Of a DNA stretch of 64,000 nucleotides, positions 4,600 to 10,694 are shown one piece after another. The stretch comes from Asticcacaulis benevestitus DSM 16100 = ATCC BAA-896 (GTDB lineage Bacteria; Pseudomonadota; Alphaproteobacteria; Caulobacterales; Caulobacteraceae): positions 372,001 to 436,000 of the forward strand of contig NZ_AQWM01000001.1 of assembly GCF_000376105.1 (NCBI RefSeq). The letters are read 5' to 3'. The notes beneath the pieces were generated by a model that searched no databases, was not told the DNA's origin, and saw only the letters and a program-made list of their open reading frames with translations. Numbering within the stretch: the stretch's first letter is position 1; each line of letters begins with the position of its first letter. Position numbers and translations under genes: made by a program.

Positions 4600-4786
4600 G
4601 GCTCTAATGTAGAAGTCCCGCGCCGGAATAACAATGCGCCACCATCAGATAAAGCGTGGATGGCTGTCTGGAGATTGTGAGTAGAATCAAGGCCGCGACG
4701 CCATGATTCGCGGCAAAATGCTTGACAAGCCCGGCACATCATGTCCCTTACGGCGCAACAAATTTCCTTATCTTATTGGCTGTTTC

Positions 4787-6568
4787 ATGCATATCTATCG
4801 CTCCCATACCTGCGGTGCCCTGCGCGCCTCCGATGCCGGTTCGCAAACCCGCCTTTCGGGCTGGATTCATCGCAAGCGAGACCACGGCGGCCTGCTGTTC
4901 ATCGACTTGCGTGACCATTACGGCCTGACACAACTGGTCTTCGATCCGTCGTCGCCGGGTTTCGCAAAGGTCGAGCGTCTGCGCGCCGAAAGCGTCATCC
5001 GCGTCGATGGCAAGGTTGTGGCGCGTGACGGTGCCACCATCAACGCCAACCTGCCAACCGGCGAGGTCGAGGTCTATGTCGCTGAGGTCGAAGTGCTGTC
5101 GGAAGCCGCCGAACTGCCGCTGCCGGTCTTCGGTGAGCCTGACTATCCCGAAGAAATCCGCCTGAAGAACCGCTTCCTCGATCTGCGCCGTGAAACCCTG
5201 CACAAGAACATCGTGCTGCGTTCGCGGGTGATCCACTCGATCCGCCAGCGTATGGTTGATCAGGGCTTCCTTGAATACCAAACGCCTATCCTGACGGCCT
5301 CGTCGCCGGAAGGCGCGCGCGACTTCCTCGTGCCGTCGCGTCTCCATGCCGGCAAGTTCTACGCGTTGCCGCAGGCGCCGCAGCAGTTCAAGCAACTGTT
5401 GATGGTTTCGGGTTTCGATCGCTATTTCCAGATCGCGCCGTGTTTCCGGGACGAAGACCTGCGCGCGGATCGTTCGCTCGAATTCTACCAGCTCGACGTT
5501 GAAATGAGCTTTGTGACGCAGGAAGATGTGTTCGCGGCGATTGAGCCTCTCATGCACGGTCTGTTCACGGAATTCGGCGAAGGTAAGCGCGTCTCGTCCT
5601 ATCCGTTCGTGCGCATCCCTTACCGTGAATCGATCGCCAAGTACGGTTCGGACAAGCCCGACCTGCGCAATCCCATCGAGATGCAGGATGTCTCCGAGAC
5701 GTTCCGTGGCGGTGGTTTCGGCCTCTTCGCGCGTATCCTCGAAAATTCCGCCAATGCAGTCTGGGGTATTCCGGCGCCGAAGGGCGGATCGCGCGCCTTC
5801 TGCGATCGCATGAACTCGTGGGCGCAGGGTGAAGGTCAGCCCGGCCTTGGCTATATCTTTTGGTCGGAGGATCAGGGCGCCTGGGGTGGTCCTATCGCCA
5901 AGAACCTCGGTCAGGACGCTACCAACGCGCTTATGGCACAGCTTGGTCTTGGCCAGGGCGATTCCGCCTTCTTCGTGGCCGGTGATCCGAAGGTGTTCTA
6001 CAAGTTCGCCGGTTCTGCCCGCACCAAGGTCGGCACCGATCTTGGATTGGTCGATGAAGATCAGTTCAAGTTCTGCTGGATCGTCGATTTTCCGATGTTC
6101 GAATTCAATGATGAAGAAAAGAAGGTCGACTTCTCGCACAATCCGTTCTCGATGCCGCAAGGTGAGATGGAAGCACTGCAGACGAAAGATCCGCTCGATA
6201 TTCTGGCTTACCAGTACGACATCGTCTGCAACGGTTATGAGTTGTGCTCTGGTGCGATCCGGAACCACAAGCAGGATATCATGCTGAAGGCCTTCGAGAT
6301 CGCTGGCTATGACGAAGCGTTCGTTGAGTCGCAATTTGGCGGTATGCTCAACGCCTTCAAATACGGCGCACCGCCGCACGGTGGTCTTGCGCCAGGTATC
6401 GACCGTATTGTGATGCTGCTTGCTGGCCAGCAGGCCATCCGCGAGGTCATCGCCTTCCCGCTGAACCAACAGGGGCAGGATGTGATGATGAGTGCGCCTT
6501 CGGATGTGCTCGATAAGCAGTTGAAAGAACTGCATATCCGCACGCAGATGCCGATCAAGGTGTCCTGA
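4787..6568 (+). CDS. aspS: Aspartyl-tRNA synthetase
   Basis: This class II synthetase charges tRNA-Asp. The translation from ATG 4787 ([10 protein letters not shown]) gives 593 residues, the usual bacterial length. The N-terminal OB-fold anticodon-binding domain ([20 protein letters not shown]) is followed by class II motif 1, motif 2 ([18 protein letters not shown]) and motif 3 ([16 protein letters not shown] near the C-terminus). The bacterial GAD insertion lies between motifs 2 and 3. An upstream in-frame ATG at 4703 would add 28 residues with no family similarity, so the internal start is preferred. A strong hairpin terminator follows the stop. Whether it also charges tRNA-Asn cannot be decided from sequence alone. 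Confidence 0.97.
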
Positions 6569-6655: not shown

Positions 6656-6705
6656 AGAGATAAGACTTGGGGCCATTGGCGCCAAACCCCAGAAATCAGC
6701 AGCTC

Positions 6706-7200
6706 TTATTGCACTGTGCAAACCGGAATGCGCAGACCGGCAGGCAGTTGCGTGGCGCGGTCGCCGCAGGTCTGGTCCATCTGGCGCTGCGTCAGGCCGG
6801 TCGCGGTGCGCATTTCCGCACCGGAGAAGTTGACGCCGGAGAGGATAGCACCTTTGAGGTTGGCGTGTTCGAGATAGGCGCCGACGAAATTGGCGTTGGT
6901 CAGGTTGGCACCGGCGAAGTTGGCACGGCCAAACAAGGCAGCGGAGCCATTAATGTCACGCAGATCAGCGCCAGCGAAGCTGGTGCCATTGAAAATGCCC
7001 AGACCCATATCGGCTTGACGCAGACGGGCACCGGCGAAGTTCTTGTTCTTAAGGGTGCGATTATTGAAATCGGCCTGGAAAAGATTGCACTTCGGGCAAT
7101 TGGCGCCATTTTGTGCCGCACTGACCTGAGAGGCATTCTGAGCCATAGCCGGTGCAGCCAGGAAAGAGGCGGCAAGAAAGACAAGCGCTATACGTTTCAT
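6706..7200 (-). CDS. Secreted pentapeptide-repeat protein
   Basis: The 164-residue product has a clear signal peptide (MKRIALVFLAASFLAAPAMA, likely cleaved before QNAS) and a central run of about 15 pentapeptide repeats of the A(D/N)LXX type (ANFAGANLTNANFVGAYLEHA and similar, residues about 50-130), which should form a right-handed quadrilateral beta-helix. A CPKC pair near residue 35 and two C-terminal cysteines (QTCGD, PVCTVQ) could form disulfides in the periplasm. The function is unknown; cytoplasmic DNA-mimic pentapeptide proteins such as Qnr lack signal peptides, so a gyrase role is unlikely. It lies about 60 bp downstream of the RNR-like gene on the same strand. Confidence 0.85.
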   Translation of the reverse strand: MKRIALVFLAASFLAAPAMAQNASQVSAAQNGANCPKCNLFQADFNNRTLKNKNFAGARLRQADMGLGIFNGTSFAGADLRDINGSAALFGRANFAGANLTNANFVGAYLEHANLKGAILSGVNFSGAEMRTATGLTQRQMDQTCGDRATQLPAGLRIPVCTVQ

Positions 7201-7260
7201 AAAAGGACACCTTCGCTAAGATTTGCAGGAACACCAGCAAGAGGCGGGCCAATACCGACA

Positions 7261-10050
7261 TTACCGATCCTCTACATCATCCTGGCTTACCAAGGCCTTA
7301 TCAGGTTCGGATTTTTTACGATTACCAAAAGGCACCACCACCAGATTATCGGTAGCTGTACCGCGTGCGAACCCCTTCGAAATCAGTTGCGACGCCGGCA
7401 TGGCGTTGCTGGGCGCATCGTCGGTCTCCGGCAGCGCATCGCCATGGAAATAGCCCTGGCCCAAACCATCGGCATTCAGTTCTGAAGGATCGGCGTTGGA
7501 AAGATCATCGCGTTCGAGATACGAAATGGCCAGTTCGCGGAAGATATAATCAAGGATCGAGGTCGCCGACTTGACGCGATCATTGCCGGTCACGGGGCCC
7601 GCTGGCTCGAAACGCGTGAAAACATAGGCCTCGACAAACTCTTCAAGTGGCACGCCGTATTGCAGACCGATCGAGATAGCGATGGCGAAATTGTTCATCA
7701 GCGAGCGGAAGGCGGCGCCTTCCTTGTGCATGTCGATGAAAATTTCGCCAAGTGTACCGTTTTCATACTCGCCGGTATGGATGTAGACCTTGTGGCCGCC
7801 CACGCCCGCCTTCTGGATATAGCCCTTGCGGCGATCCGGCAGCTTGGTGCGCGTCCGTTCGCGCTCTACGATTTTTTCAATGATACGTGCAGCGGTTTCC
7901 CTGGTGGGTGCGGGCTCGGAAGTGCGTTTTGGCGCTTCATCGACATCGGGAATATCGAGCGCGAAATCCAGTGGCGCCTCGGCGCGCACCACGGAAATGG
8001 CGCGCAGGCCGGAACTGGCCGCGAGGGAATAGAGTTTCATGACGTCTAGCACACCCTGATCCCAGGCCAAGGAAAACGGGGCTACGGCCGGCGCATCGAG
8101 CAAGGCTTCGATCTGTTGTCGCAACTGGATTTGCGCCTTGCGACCGACGGGTGCGAGCAGATGGTAGGTGGCGTCACTGACCAGTTTGAGGGCTTCGGGG
8201 TCTTTGTGGCCAAAAATATGGGCCTCGGCCATCACCACTTCTGTTGGCGAAAAGCCCATGATGTCCAGAAGGTTAAGTGACGGATCTGACAGATCGCTTT
8301 CGCTCAGGCCCCAAATGTCCTGGATAAAGGCGGCATCGATATGACGCACTGAAAACACCTCGGCGAGGCTGGAAGACGTGAGCAGGGCCGCTTCCAGCCG
8401 GTCGATCTCGAACTCGCTCAGGCCCTTTGTTTTCAAAGCGCTGACGTGGATATGCGGCGCATCGATCAGGCTGCGATGCCCCATAAGCACGCCGCGTACA
8501 TCCCCCCATGTCTGAGATATGGCCTGCAGGCCCTTGATAACGCAGGCTTTCACCGTGGGGACGAAAATACCGTCTTCAGTTTCCATGACCGTCAGCAGAT
8601 CGGTGACGCCGCGATCGCCGAGGCTAACGCCCAGGCGCAAGGCCAGTTCGGCATCATCGAACAGACCGGTGACCTGAGCATTGCGCAGGCCGGTTTTCTT
8701 GGCCAGTTTGAGCGCGGTCTGGATCAGGTCAAGCGCGTGTGATTTGAGCCCGGCATGGCCTTTGAGCGCTGTGATCTGATACAGGCGCTGACTAAGACGG
8801 TCGGTTTGCTCGGCCTTGTCACTGGCAAAATCGCCATAGGCGCCGATATGCGCGGCCAGGGTCGCCGAGGCATGGGCGGCGGCGGCTTCAAACAGGGCGA
8901 AGATATGGGTGGCGAGGCCTGTACCCGCCTTGTCATTCAGGCTCAGACCCTGACCCATAATCGCTTCGCCAAGGCCGGCAAGAGTCAGGCTCAAGGGGCG
9001 TATCGCGTGGCGGCGCTGGCTGTCTTCCAGGGTGGACGAGAACCCGATGGCGGCTTCTATATCGAGCGCTTGTGTCCACAGACCTATGGTTTCGATAAAA
9101 GCTTCGCTGGCGAAGTCGCCAAGATCATCGAAAAACCTATCAATATTGATGGCGGCGCTGGCGGCAGAATTGTGCGCTTCCACCACCTCGGCATCATGCG
9201 GATTAAAAACAATATGCATGGCGCCTGTTTCGAGCGCGGTTTCCGCCGCTAGAACCGATGATGGATCGCCGGCGCTTAAGAGGTCGCGCTCACCGATAAC
9301 GGCGCGAAGGCGCGGCTTGGCAGGCGAGGGCGAGGGCATTCGCGACCAGTCCGCAGGCACCATGCCCTGACTGATCTGGATCTGCCGTGCGATCAAGGTG
9401 TCCGAGGCGCCAAAGCGACGCGCCTTGCTGGCGGCGCGTGCAAGTGCAGGATTGTGTTTCAGGCTGGCGCGCTGGTCGCCTTCGGAACGATCGATGGCGT
9501 GGCTGATGTCATCGAGCGCCTGTGCCAGTCGTGTCTGGGCCGCTGATGCCAGAGTCGTGGTGCGCGCTTCGATCAACACTTGATTGAGCGATTGCCGGCC
9601 TGCCGGATCGTCGAGGAACAAGGACACGCTGTCAGCAAGAGGGGGCAGTACGTCACCGGCCGTTGGGTGCACACGATGGCCGGACGCCATTCCAAGGGCC
9701 GGTGCCGCCAGTCCGGACAGCAAGGTCATTTCGATGGCTTCAGCGAAATTTGCGGCCATGGCAGCATCCGCAAAGTGACCGAGGCGCAGGCCCCATTGCG
9801 CCAGACGATGCGCGAAGGTGGCAATCGCGCCATCAAAAACATTGGCTTGGGGATCGATGGCAAGCGACGCGGCGCCCGCCGGCAGGTCATTCGGCAGCGA
9901 ATCAGCCCAGTCCAGCCACGCTTCGACTTGGACCGATGTCAGGTCACGGGGGCACAAAACCTCGCTGAAAGCGACGGAGCGTTCGATCTCGCGCAGTTCC
10001 AGATCGTTCTCCCGGCCGAGCGCGCGCAAGGCGGATGACAGATAGGGCAT
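7261..10050 (-). CDS. B12-dependent ribonucleotide reductase-like protein (TSCPD-type C-terminus), probably non-catalytic
   Basis: This 929-residue protein has a C-terminal region (about 743-850) that closely resembles the tail of class II reductase NrdJ: GGHKVYIHTGEYENG, EIFIDMHKEGAAFRSLMNNF and RFEPAGPVTGNDR. Upstream, shorter stretches also recall NrdJ in the same order: LSLTLAGLGEAIMG (~353), GLRNAQVTGL (~454), LKTKGLSEFEIDRL (~539), and LYSLAASSGLRAISVVR (~673) against the NrdJ KLGLKANALYRD segment. Right after RNAQVT, where NrdJ has its APTGTIG loop, that motif is absent. The whole protein has only two cysteines (Cys33 and Cys503), too few for the radical cysteine, the redox pair and the C-terminal CxxC. 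I infer a diverged paralogue kept for a structural or regulatory role. The start is ATG 10050 with AGGA upstream. Confidence 0.8.
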   Translation of the reverse strand: MPYLSSALRALGRENDLELREIERSVAFSEVLCPRDLTSVQVEAWLDWADSLPNDLPAGAASLAIDPQANVFDGAIATFAHRLAQWGLRLGHFADAAMAANFAEAIEMTLLSGLAAPALGMASGHRVHPTAGDVLPPLADSVSLFLDDPAGRQSLNQVLIEARTTTLASAAQTRLAQALDDISHAIDRSEGDQRASLKHNPALARAASKARRFGASDTLIARQIQISQGMVPADWSRMPSPSPAKPRLRAVIGERDLLSAGDPSSVLAAETALETGAMHIVFNPHDAEVVEAHNSAASAAINIDRFFDDLGDFASEAFIETIGLWTQALDIEAAIGFSSTLEDSQRRHAIRPLSLTLAGLGEAIMGQGLSLNDKAGTGLATHIFALFEAAAAHASATLAAHIGAYGDFASDKAEQTDRLSQRLYQITALKGHAGLKSHALDLIQTALKLAKKTGLRNAQVTGLFDDAELALRLGVSLGDRGVTDLLTVMETEDGIFVPTVKACVIKGLQAISQTWGDVRGVLMGHRSLIDAPHIHVSALKTKGLSEFEIDRLEAALLTSSSLAEVFSVRHIDAAFIQDIWGLSESDLSDPSLNLLDIMGFSPTEVVMAEAHIFGHKDPEALKLVSDATYHLLAPVGRKAQIQLRQQIEALLDAPAVAPFSLAWDQGVLDVMKLYSLAASSGLRAISVVRAEAPLDFALDIPDVDEAPKRTSEPAPTRETAARIIEKIVERERTRTKLPDRRKGYIQKAGVGGHKVYIHTGEYENGTLGEIFIDMHKEGAAFRSLMNNFAIAISIGLQYGVPLEEFVEAYVFTRFEPAGPVTGNDRVKSATSILDYIFRELAISYLERDDLSNADPSELNADGLGQGYFHGDALPETDDAPSNAMPASQLISKGFARGTATDNLVVVPFGNRKKSEPDKALVSQDDVEDR

Positions 10051-10274
10051 GTGTAATCCTTAAATCTACCGGACATTATCCCCAGATGTAGCGTTAATTT
10101 TTACATACATCAATAAATCTGGTGTCCCTTTGCATATTCATCCACAATATGTTGATGTCGTGGTGGCTTTTTGCCGCGCACAATATTTTCCAGTCCGGCT
10201 TTACCTGCGCACGCGGGCTCTTTATAGTCGGGAGTTGAATTTCGGGGCGTGTGATGCGTCTCTGGTAAGGATAT

Positions 10275-10694
10275 ATGACGATGCGCTGGTTGCTTAATTT
10301 ACTCGCTCCTTCTTTTACCTGGTGGAATGGCGCCACGCTCGGCACGCTCTTTACCATTGGCAAGCATGGTCGCCAGGTCGGCACGGACGAGTTTGGCAAC
10401 CGCTATTTTGAAGGTCGCACCGCCAAGAACAGTTACGACACGGGCCGTAAGCGCCGCTGGGTACTGTACAACGGTTATGCCGACGCCTCGAAGATTCCGC
10501 CCGATTGGCATGGCTGGATGCATTACACCTATGACACGCCGCCTTCGGAAGAGCCTCTGCGTCGCAAGGCCTGGGAAAAGCCCCACATGCCGAATATGAG
10601 TGGCACTCCCTATGCGCAGTTCCCATCGGGTTCGCTCAATGCAGAGGCCGAACGCCAAAAGACGACCGGCGATTACGAAGCCTGGAAACCCTAA
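10275..10694 (+). CDS. NADH:ubiquinone oxidoreductase accessory subunit NDUFA12 family
   Basis: This 139-residue protein matches the NDUFA12/B17.2 family, an accessory subunit of alphaproteobacterial and mitochondrial complex I. Visible signatures are TWWNGATLGTLFTI, GTDEFGNRYFEGR, RRWVLYNGYADASKIPPDWHGWMHY and a proline-rich tail. It is expected at the membrane-matrix arm interface and is encoded away from the nuo operon, which is usual. AAGGA at 10267-10271 is better spaced for the second ATG (10281, MRWLLN) than for 10275, so the true product may be two residues shorter. It is followed after 15 bp by the DUF2155 gene, with which it is probably co-transcribed. Confidence 0.93.
   Translation: MTMRWLLNLLAPSFTWWNGATLGTLFTIGKHGRQVGTDEFGNRYFEGRTAKNSYDTGRKRRWVLYNGYADASKIPPDWHGWMHYTYDTPPSEEPLRRKAWEKPHMPNMSGTPYAQFPSGSLNAEAERQKTTGDYEAWKP

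Follow-up and report, generated by a model that had tools for sequence, protein, structure and literature searches.

Class II ribonucleotide reductases (RNRs) of the Alphaproteobacteria are represented by the NrdJ family NF005736 and by the structure 7b9p. Their tail domain, TSCPD, has been described as IscU-like, with no role reported for it (PMC9669993). Pseudomonas aeruginosa harbors a split class II RNR, in which NrdJb carries the IscU-like domain apart from the active barrel (PMC4520616, PMC9669993). NrdJb illustrates that a class II tail can work on an RNR as a separate chain, and its main role is to exchange thiols through redox cysteines that serve NrdJa (PMC4520616). Betaherpesvirus R1 homologs are RNR large subunits that have lost their activity and taken on another job, acting on host innate immunity (PMC11772975). 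The gene discussed here lies in a stretch of 64,000 nucleotides from Asticcacaulis benevestitus DSM 16100 (the window; contig NZ_AQWM01000001.1, positions 372,001 to 436,000) and encodes an apparently non-catalytic NrdJ homolog, which is called pseudo-NrdJ in the following. A possible works-like model for it is the prozyme of Trypanosoma, reportedly a dead paralog of S-adenosylmethionine decarboxylase (AdoMetDC) that tunes the live enzyme; the partner of prozyme is known, whereas for pseudo-NrdJ we infer both the partner and the regulatory role.

Pseudo-NrdJ resembles alphaproteobacterial NrdJ in gene neighborhood, domain order, the TSCPD domain, and NrdR-like boxes. It differs by the absence of the catalytic cysteines, the PTGTIG loop, the Zn-ribbon, and the redox tail, and its first half-barrel is unrecognizable. 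An accessory subunit of the NrdJb type has redox cysteines and an NrdJ to serve (PMC4520616); the window protein has lost the C-terminal redox pair, and its genome has no second NrdJ. Unlike the viral R1 homologs (PMC11772975), pseudo-NrdJ is a cellular class II protein, is predicted to be NrdR-regulated, and has lost catalysis more than once. In Caulobacter crescentus, the gene CCNA_01966 is annotated as NrdJ and assigned to the pathway of nucleotide reduction, with B12 described as serving the production of deoxynucleoside triphosphates (dNTPs) (PMC6538847). The mRNA of this gene is listed in a table of RNAs that co-purify with GsrN (PMC5869019). Among the best-ranked open matches of a literature search by title and abstract, no account was found of a dead NrdJ, of a role for TSCPD, or of NrdR acting on nrdJ in Caulobacter.

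The frame at 7261 to 10050 is intact and codes for 929 residues, as stated in the original prediction, which was made from the letters of the window alone and had left out the strand (minus). The homology to NrdJ that it proposed is found far beyond chance: NF005736 (“vitamin B12-dependent RNR”) matches residues 298 to 915 at 1.3e-109, the Pfam barrel PF02867 matches residues 299 to 495 at 2.3e-13, and TSCPD PF12637 matches residues 748 to 841 at 3.1e-10. The N-terminal half is mostly unrecognizable against NrdJ. With 367 bits, the protein scores below the NF005736 equivalog cut-off of 1737. On the evidence of these sequences, the gene is a descendant of an alphaproteobacterial class II RNR. 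The only solved relatives by sequence are 7b9p and 7b9q (E up to 1). An AlphaFold2 model reached a mean predicted local distance difference test (pLDDT) score of 78.6 and a predicted template modeling (TM) score (pTM) of 0.70, with most of the body (residues 298 to 690) above a pLDDT of 85. Its top Foldseek match in the PDB is the RNR of Rhodobacter sphaeroides, 7b9p (E 3e-21, TM 0.52), aligned over 919 columns with a root mean square deviation of 9.5. The low TM score of the model fits a worn scaffold. A dedicated AlphaFold2 model of the TSCPD segment was poor (pLDDT 62.4, pTM 0.42; element order β-β-β-α-α-α) and gave no PDB match at E ≤0.001; the label IscU-like is therefore taken from PMC9669993 and not from this model.

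Pseudo-NrdJ has only two cysteines, at residues 33 and 503, and contains RNAQVT with no PTGT after it, both as originally described. An alignment (A1) was built from 20 short, motif-less forms (five from the genus, eight from the rest of the family, and seven from families f2 to f4) and 11 full-length NrdJs; L065, a probable chimera, remained within it. The radical cysteine, which is presumably that of the NPC.E motif in the finger loop, is present in 11/11 true NrdJs and 0/20 pseudo forms. The same split is seen for two further barrel cysteines, taken to be the active-site pair, and for the pair in the C-terminal tail, assumed to be the redox cysteines. The PTGTIG loop occurs in 0/20 pseudo forms, and one f2 form (L034) has a cysteine at one further, non-catalytic column. 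All 15 aligned pseudo forms from Caulobacterales other than the genus retain the four Zn-ribbon cysteines, which all five genus forms lack. The retrieved loci, with duplicate and end-cut ones counted, contain 175 frames that bear TSCPD; of these, 76 have both NPC.E and PTGT, 97 have neither, and two have one. The two mixed frames are L185, truncated ahead of the radical site, and L065. The latter comes from a 5.2-kb contig of the Brevundimonas metagenome-assembled genome UBA2388 and joins a true-NrdJ barrel to a Caulobacteraceae-type tail, probably through an assembly error. Judged by the missing radical and active-site cysteines and the missing loop, the window protein is non-catalytic, and the predicted loss of catalysis stands. 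A function of the tail as an iron–sulfur scaffold was ruled out, because the TSCPD domain of the window protein has no cysteine.

The TSCPD domain has been kept almost unchanged. Between pseudo forms and true NrdJs it is 82 to 84% identical, and 84% between true NrdJs, whereas the three body regions are 15 to 27% identical to true NrdJ, compared to 63 to 65% between true NrdJs. Of the residues that are invariant in true NrdJs, the pseudo forms retain 96 to 98% in TSCPD and 9 to 30% in the three body regions; in the N-terminal region A, 9 to 22% are kept and 42 to 58% are gapped. The TSCPD domain of the window protein is 78 to 89% identical to those of the four true NrdJs aligned with it. The original prediction held that the scaffold had been kept along with the tail. 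This has to be revised, as the N-terminal half retains 9 to 22% of the NrdJ invariants and the rest of the body 21 to 27% identity; only TSCPD is truly kept. The conserved C-terminal region that it placed from residue 743 corresponds to this domain, and the tail beyond is poorly conserved.

Selection on the gene was assessed by dN/dS (omega) in the 12 closest pairs among 23 genus sequences. Omega was 0.058 to 0.138 for the whole gene and 0 to 0.042 for TSCPD, and it never exceeded 0.24 in any region. Within the genus, mean identity is 92% in TSCPD and 52 to 62% in the other regions. Because of these values, the body is regarded as being under constraint and TSCPD far more so, which agrees with the earlier view that the gene is not decaying. 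Catalytic residues are lost, the frame is intact, and selection is purifying, as in a pseudoenzyme. Among the 13 Caulobacteraceae forms in the alignment, the body has 45 invariant positions, and at 18 of them the residue is unlike the commonest one in NrdJ; therefore, the Caulobacteraceae pseudo family has acquired constraints of its own as well. Five of the 18 lie in the AWLDWA cluster (A44, W45, D47, W48, and A49). Together with the purifying selection and confident modeled fold of the body, such positions might indicate that the protein has remained an enzyme and uses the RNR fold for new chemistry. This is considered very unlikely, as the 18 new invariants include no cysteine or histidine, the finger and the PTGTIG loop are gone, and across all 20 pseudo forms only four body positions are invariant, compared to 73 in TSCPD.

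The gene is present in 25/25 genus genomes searched, its own included, split by contig ends in G004 and G023 and without a stop inside the match in any of them. A sequencing artefact is ruled out by this recurrence. A form with restored catalytic motifs, which the original prediction had named as a refuting find, was not found in the genus, all 24 loci examined being motif-less. Records from Caulobacter, Phenylobacterium, and Brevundimonas contain frames of 790 to 960 amino acids where uncut by contig ends. A TSCPD match occurs in at least 285 of 298 Caulobacterales genomes, including those with a second, short NrdJ type. The short type (frames of 740 to 785 amino acids, full barrel match 2 to 523) is scattered in the order (e.g., G041, G045, G051, and G077), occurs in G041, where pseudo-NrdJ is missing, and was probably acquired separately. 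The survey of co-occurrence that had been suggested at the outset returned an NrdA-type RNR match in 60/60 Caulobacterales genomes tested (frames of ~620–750 amino acids), named class I here from the match alone. The genome of the window encodes NrdA, NrdB, and NrdR, and no other PF02867 protein.

Motif-less forms are found in four of the five Caulobacterales families sampled. At the pseudo-nrdJ locus, all checked forms of f1 (the family of the window), f2, and f3 lack the motifs; f4 contains true and motif-less kinds as well as genomes without any, and the f5 proteins checked (L045, L046, L145, L241, and L242) are true NrdJs. The Caulobacter vibrioides control genome has a TSCPD match and an NF005736 match only below the cut-off, which, from profile scores alone, would be expected of a degenerate form. 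A tree of NrdA sequences chosen by homology served as a proxy for the species tree. In it, f1, whose members have a pseudo form or none, groups as sister to f5, whose forms are true NrdJs, at a support of 99/96. A second tree was made without G044, G066, and G057, whose state was only assumed; nine others were motif-checked and all proved as labeled. Here, the pairing has a support of 100/96 (f1, 100/97; f5, 100/98), and the remaining backbone is poorly supported. A clade of f2 and pseudo f4 forms in the earlier tree was gone in the reduced one and was not used. Since f1 is sister to the true-NrdJ family f5, it lost catalysis apart from f2, f3, and f4, unless NrdJ was regained.

Outside the order, degeneration has occurred as well. 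The TSCPD domain is found in 105 of 163 alphaproteobacterial genomes, at least nine of which have degenerate forms: G000 and G025 of the Caulobacterales and seven from families f64, f96, f19, f65, and f29 (G380 of f65 is listed as 10% contaminated). Motif-less forms that keep TSCPD thus occur in five families outside the Caulobacterales. Further short frames in G444 and G455 have both motifs and begin at contig ends. In the class, 71 of 114 genomes score above the NF005736 cut-off. In three genomes of f64 and f96, essentially the TSCPD part alone remains at the same locus, as proteins of 278 and 280 amino acids in f64 and 301 in f96, with no PF02867 match there; the 301-residue protein keeps a Zn-ribbon. 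TSCPD is the sole Pfam match in L155, which sits between NDUFA12 and aspS, and in L156, which adjoins NDUFA12, and the L128 locus contains aspS, accC, accB, and aroQ. All seven degenerate genomes of these families carry another PF02867 RNR, and their different families suggest that the losses were independent of each other.

Upstream of pseudo-nrdJ, two tandem palindrome-like boxes of 16 bp are separated by a 16-bp spacer. Most NrdR sites have 15 to 16 bp between two palindromic boxes (PMC12051234), and the NrdR tetramer, when bound, covers a pair of boxes that are about three turns from each other (PMC9110341). The predicted boxes show this spacing, and NrdR is encoded in the genome. They are imperfect, with 10 and 12 of 14 consensus positions, and form the best pair in the window (score 22/28; the next reaches 19). 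None of 100 shuffled windows, which preserve base composition only, contained a pair scoring ≥22. In a partly circular count, pairs scoring ≥20 occur at all 24 genus loci, at 22 of the 26 further loci of f1, and at 36 of the 62 loci with a true nrdJ; the background is nine such pairs in 1,396,710 nt of flanking DNA, or 0.0035 expected per 540-nt region. Among the four f1 loci without such a pair, L141 carries one of score 24 deeper inside an over-long frame. In 20 genus promoters, no conserved block is longer than the two boxes, and nrdA and nrdB of the same genome have pairs of score 20 at 68 and 44 bp upstream of their first ATG. The latter two genes are on separate contigs, with the pairs at L044:5990-6036 and L233:2417-2463 (spacing 31).

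Other promoter signals were less informative. A general NrdR box pattern, with up to three mismatches, had no match in the window, and a general consensus reaches 11 to 13 of 16 positions in genus promoters and does not discriminate on its own. No GANTC site common to the genus promoters was seen. From the boxes it is predicted that pseudo-nrdJ is probably still under NrdR control along with nrdA and nrdB. PMC5343134 reports the reconstruction of 186 NrdR regulons of Proteobacteria, which may already include a predicted site at pseudo-nrdJ. Pseudo-nrdJ has its 224-bp intergenic region in common with NDUFA12, whose ATG lies 118 bp from the boxes, and the conserved pair could serve this divergent gene instead of pseudo-nrdJ. 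Such an assignment is highly improbable, as the pairs at true nrdJ loci stand in many cases in other gene neighborhoods, and nrdA and nrdB carry pairs too. The genus promoters share one more conserved block, AGGTAAAG (window 10199-10206, minus strand), which lies upstream of the boxes and is possibly part of the NDUFA12 promoter.

The preferred reading, which is considered moderately probable, is that pseudo-NrdJ is a non-catalytic NrdJ descendant kept in the RNR regulon and acting via TSCPD in the control of dNTPs or of RNR. An ancestral alphaproteobacterial class II RNR gene would have descended in place; with the class I enzyme covering dNTP synthesis, this nrdJ copy would have lost its catalytic residues. 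The protein would have been retained as a non-catalytic factor, probably still NrdR-controlled with nrdA and nrdB, and would tune the dNTP supply as an accessory or regulatory factor. TSCPD would be its working part and may dock on a conserved partner, either RNR or a different factor that acts in DNA-precursor metabolism, and the worn barrel would serve as a scaffold. Of the structural, allosteric, or assembly role that was originally put forward, a regulatory or assembly role is favored because the promoter keeps the predicted NrdR-box pair.

Several observations weigh against this reading. The consensus of the boxes was derived by visual inspection of true nrdJ promoters from the same set, hence the circularity of the count. 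The box pair is found at 0/12 f2 to f4 pseudo loci, though TSCPD is kept there, and at 1/7 degenerate TSCPD loci of other orders. In L133, L134, and L135, from other orders, the worn body is kept and TSCPD is lost. Five genomes (G041, G056, and G076, plus G039 and G048 of g10) cleanly lack the gene next to NDUFA12, and it is therefore dispensable in places. Clean absence would also suit a slowly dying relic, as would the 432-amino-acid frame with a garbled N-terminus in L136 (G248) and the only partly matched TSCPD in L151 (G061), both of which reflect local decay or sequencing error. A relic is nevertheless hardly credible, given the 25 genus genomes without a stop in the match and the low omega in every region of the 12 pairs.

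It is also conceivable, though rather unlikely, that the function of TSCPD was never tied to ribonucleotide reduction (e.g., binding of a conserved macromolecule), with pseudo-NrdJ as a mere carrier and the NrdR boxes inherited. The domain outconserves the rest of the protein even in true NrdJ, TSCPD-only proteins exist, and the f2 to f4 forms retain the domain without boxes. Against this stand the box pairs retained at 46 of 50 loci in the family of the window and those at the start of two genes without TSCPD, L133 (score 24) and L134 (score 23).

The genes of the block aroQ-accB-accC-aat-DUF2155-NDUFA12-[nrdJ]-pentapeptide-aspS recur across the pseudo loci; four neighbor names come from Pfam, and the rest are assigned here. 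Block genes are also found at several true NrdJ loci of other orders (e.g., L071, L085, L092, L097, L101, and L107) and at TSCPD-only loci. Given this common block, the gene most likely decayed in place, and horizontal gain is ruled out by the shared neighborhood. Two long antisense frames, at 4748-6535 (minus) and 6667-7485 (plus), overlie aspS and the pentapeptide gene and are most likely due to chance. The features of the locus are collected in Table 1.

Table 1. Pseudo-nrdJ, its parts, and its surroundings in the window
Feature	Position	Strand	Basis or remark
Non-catalytic NrdJ homolog (pseudo-NrdJ), 929 aa	7261..10050	-	Intact frame, ATG start, profile matches, alignment
N-terminal region, residues 1-297	9160..10050	-	Replaces first NrdJ half-barrel; sequence mostly unrecognizable
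AWLDWA, residues 44-49	9904..9921	-	Invariant cluster, 13 aligned Caulobacteraceae pseudo forms
Barrel-derived body, residues 298-690	7981..9159	-	21-27% identity to true NrdJ; no radical Cys, no PTGTIG
TSCPD (IscU-like) domain, residues 737-850 (114 residues)	7501..7842	-	89% identity to same-order true NrdJ L046
C-terminal tail, residues 851-929	7264..7500	-	NrdJ Zn-ribbon and redox cysteines absent
Predicted NrdR-like box, proximal	10110..10125	.	~60 bp upstream of ATG
Predicted NrdR-like box, distal	10142..10157	.	32 bp start-to-start from proximal box
NDUFA12 gene, divergent syntenic neighbor	10275..10691	+	PF05071 2e-25
Pentapeptide-repeat protein, downstream syntenic neighbor	6706..7200	-	PF00805 1.8e-18

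A wider proposal is made tentatively and may well fail: the TSCPD domain of alphaproteobacterial class II RNRs would be an independent module that controls dNTPs or DNA replication and persists after the reductase is gone. In several lineages, nrdJ would separately have become non-catalytic, yielding at first an NrdR-controlled regulator and, in the extreme, a TSCPD protein of 280 amino acids at the same locus; the protein annotated as NrdJ in Caulobacter would be such a regulator and not a reductase. The repeated loss of the reductase with full conservation of the tail is a natural separation of function, which makes the role of the tail testable in Caulobacter. If the proposal is true, the annotation of CCNA_01966 as NrdJ is probably wrong, and a bacterial model of the cell cycle would possess an unrecognized layer of dNTP control.

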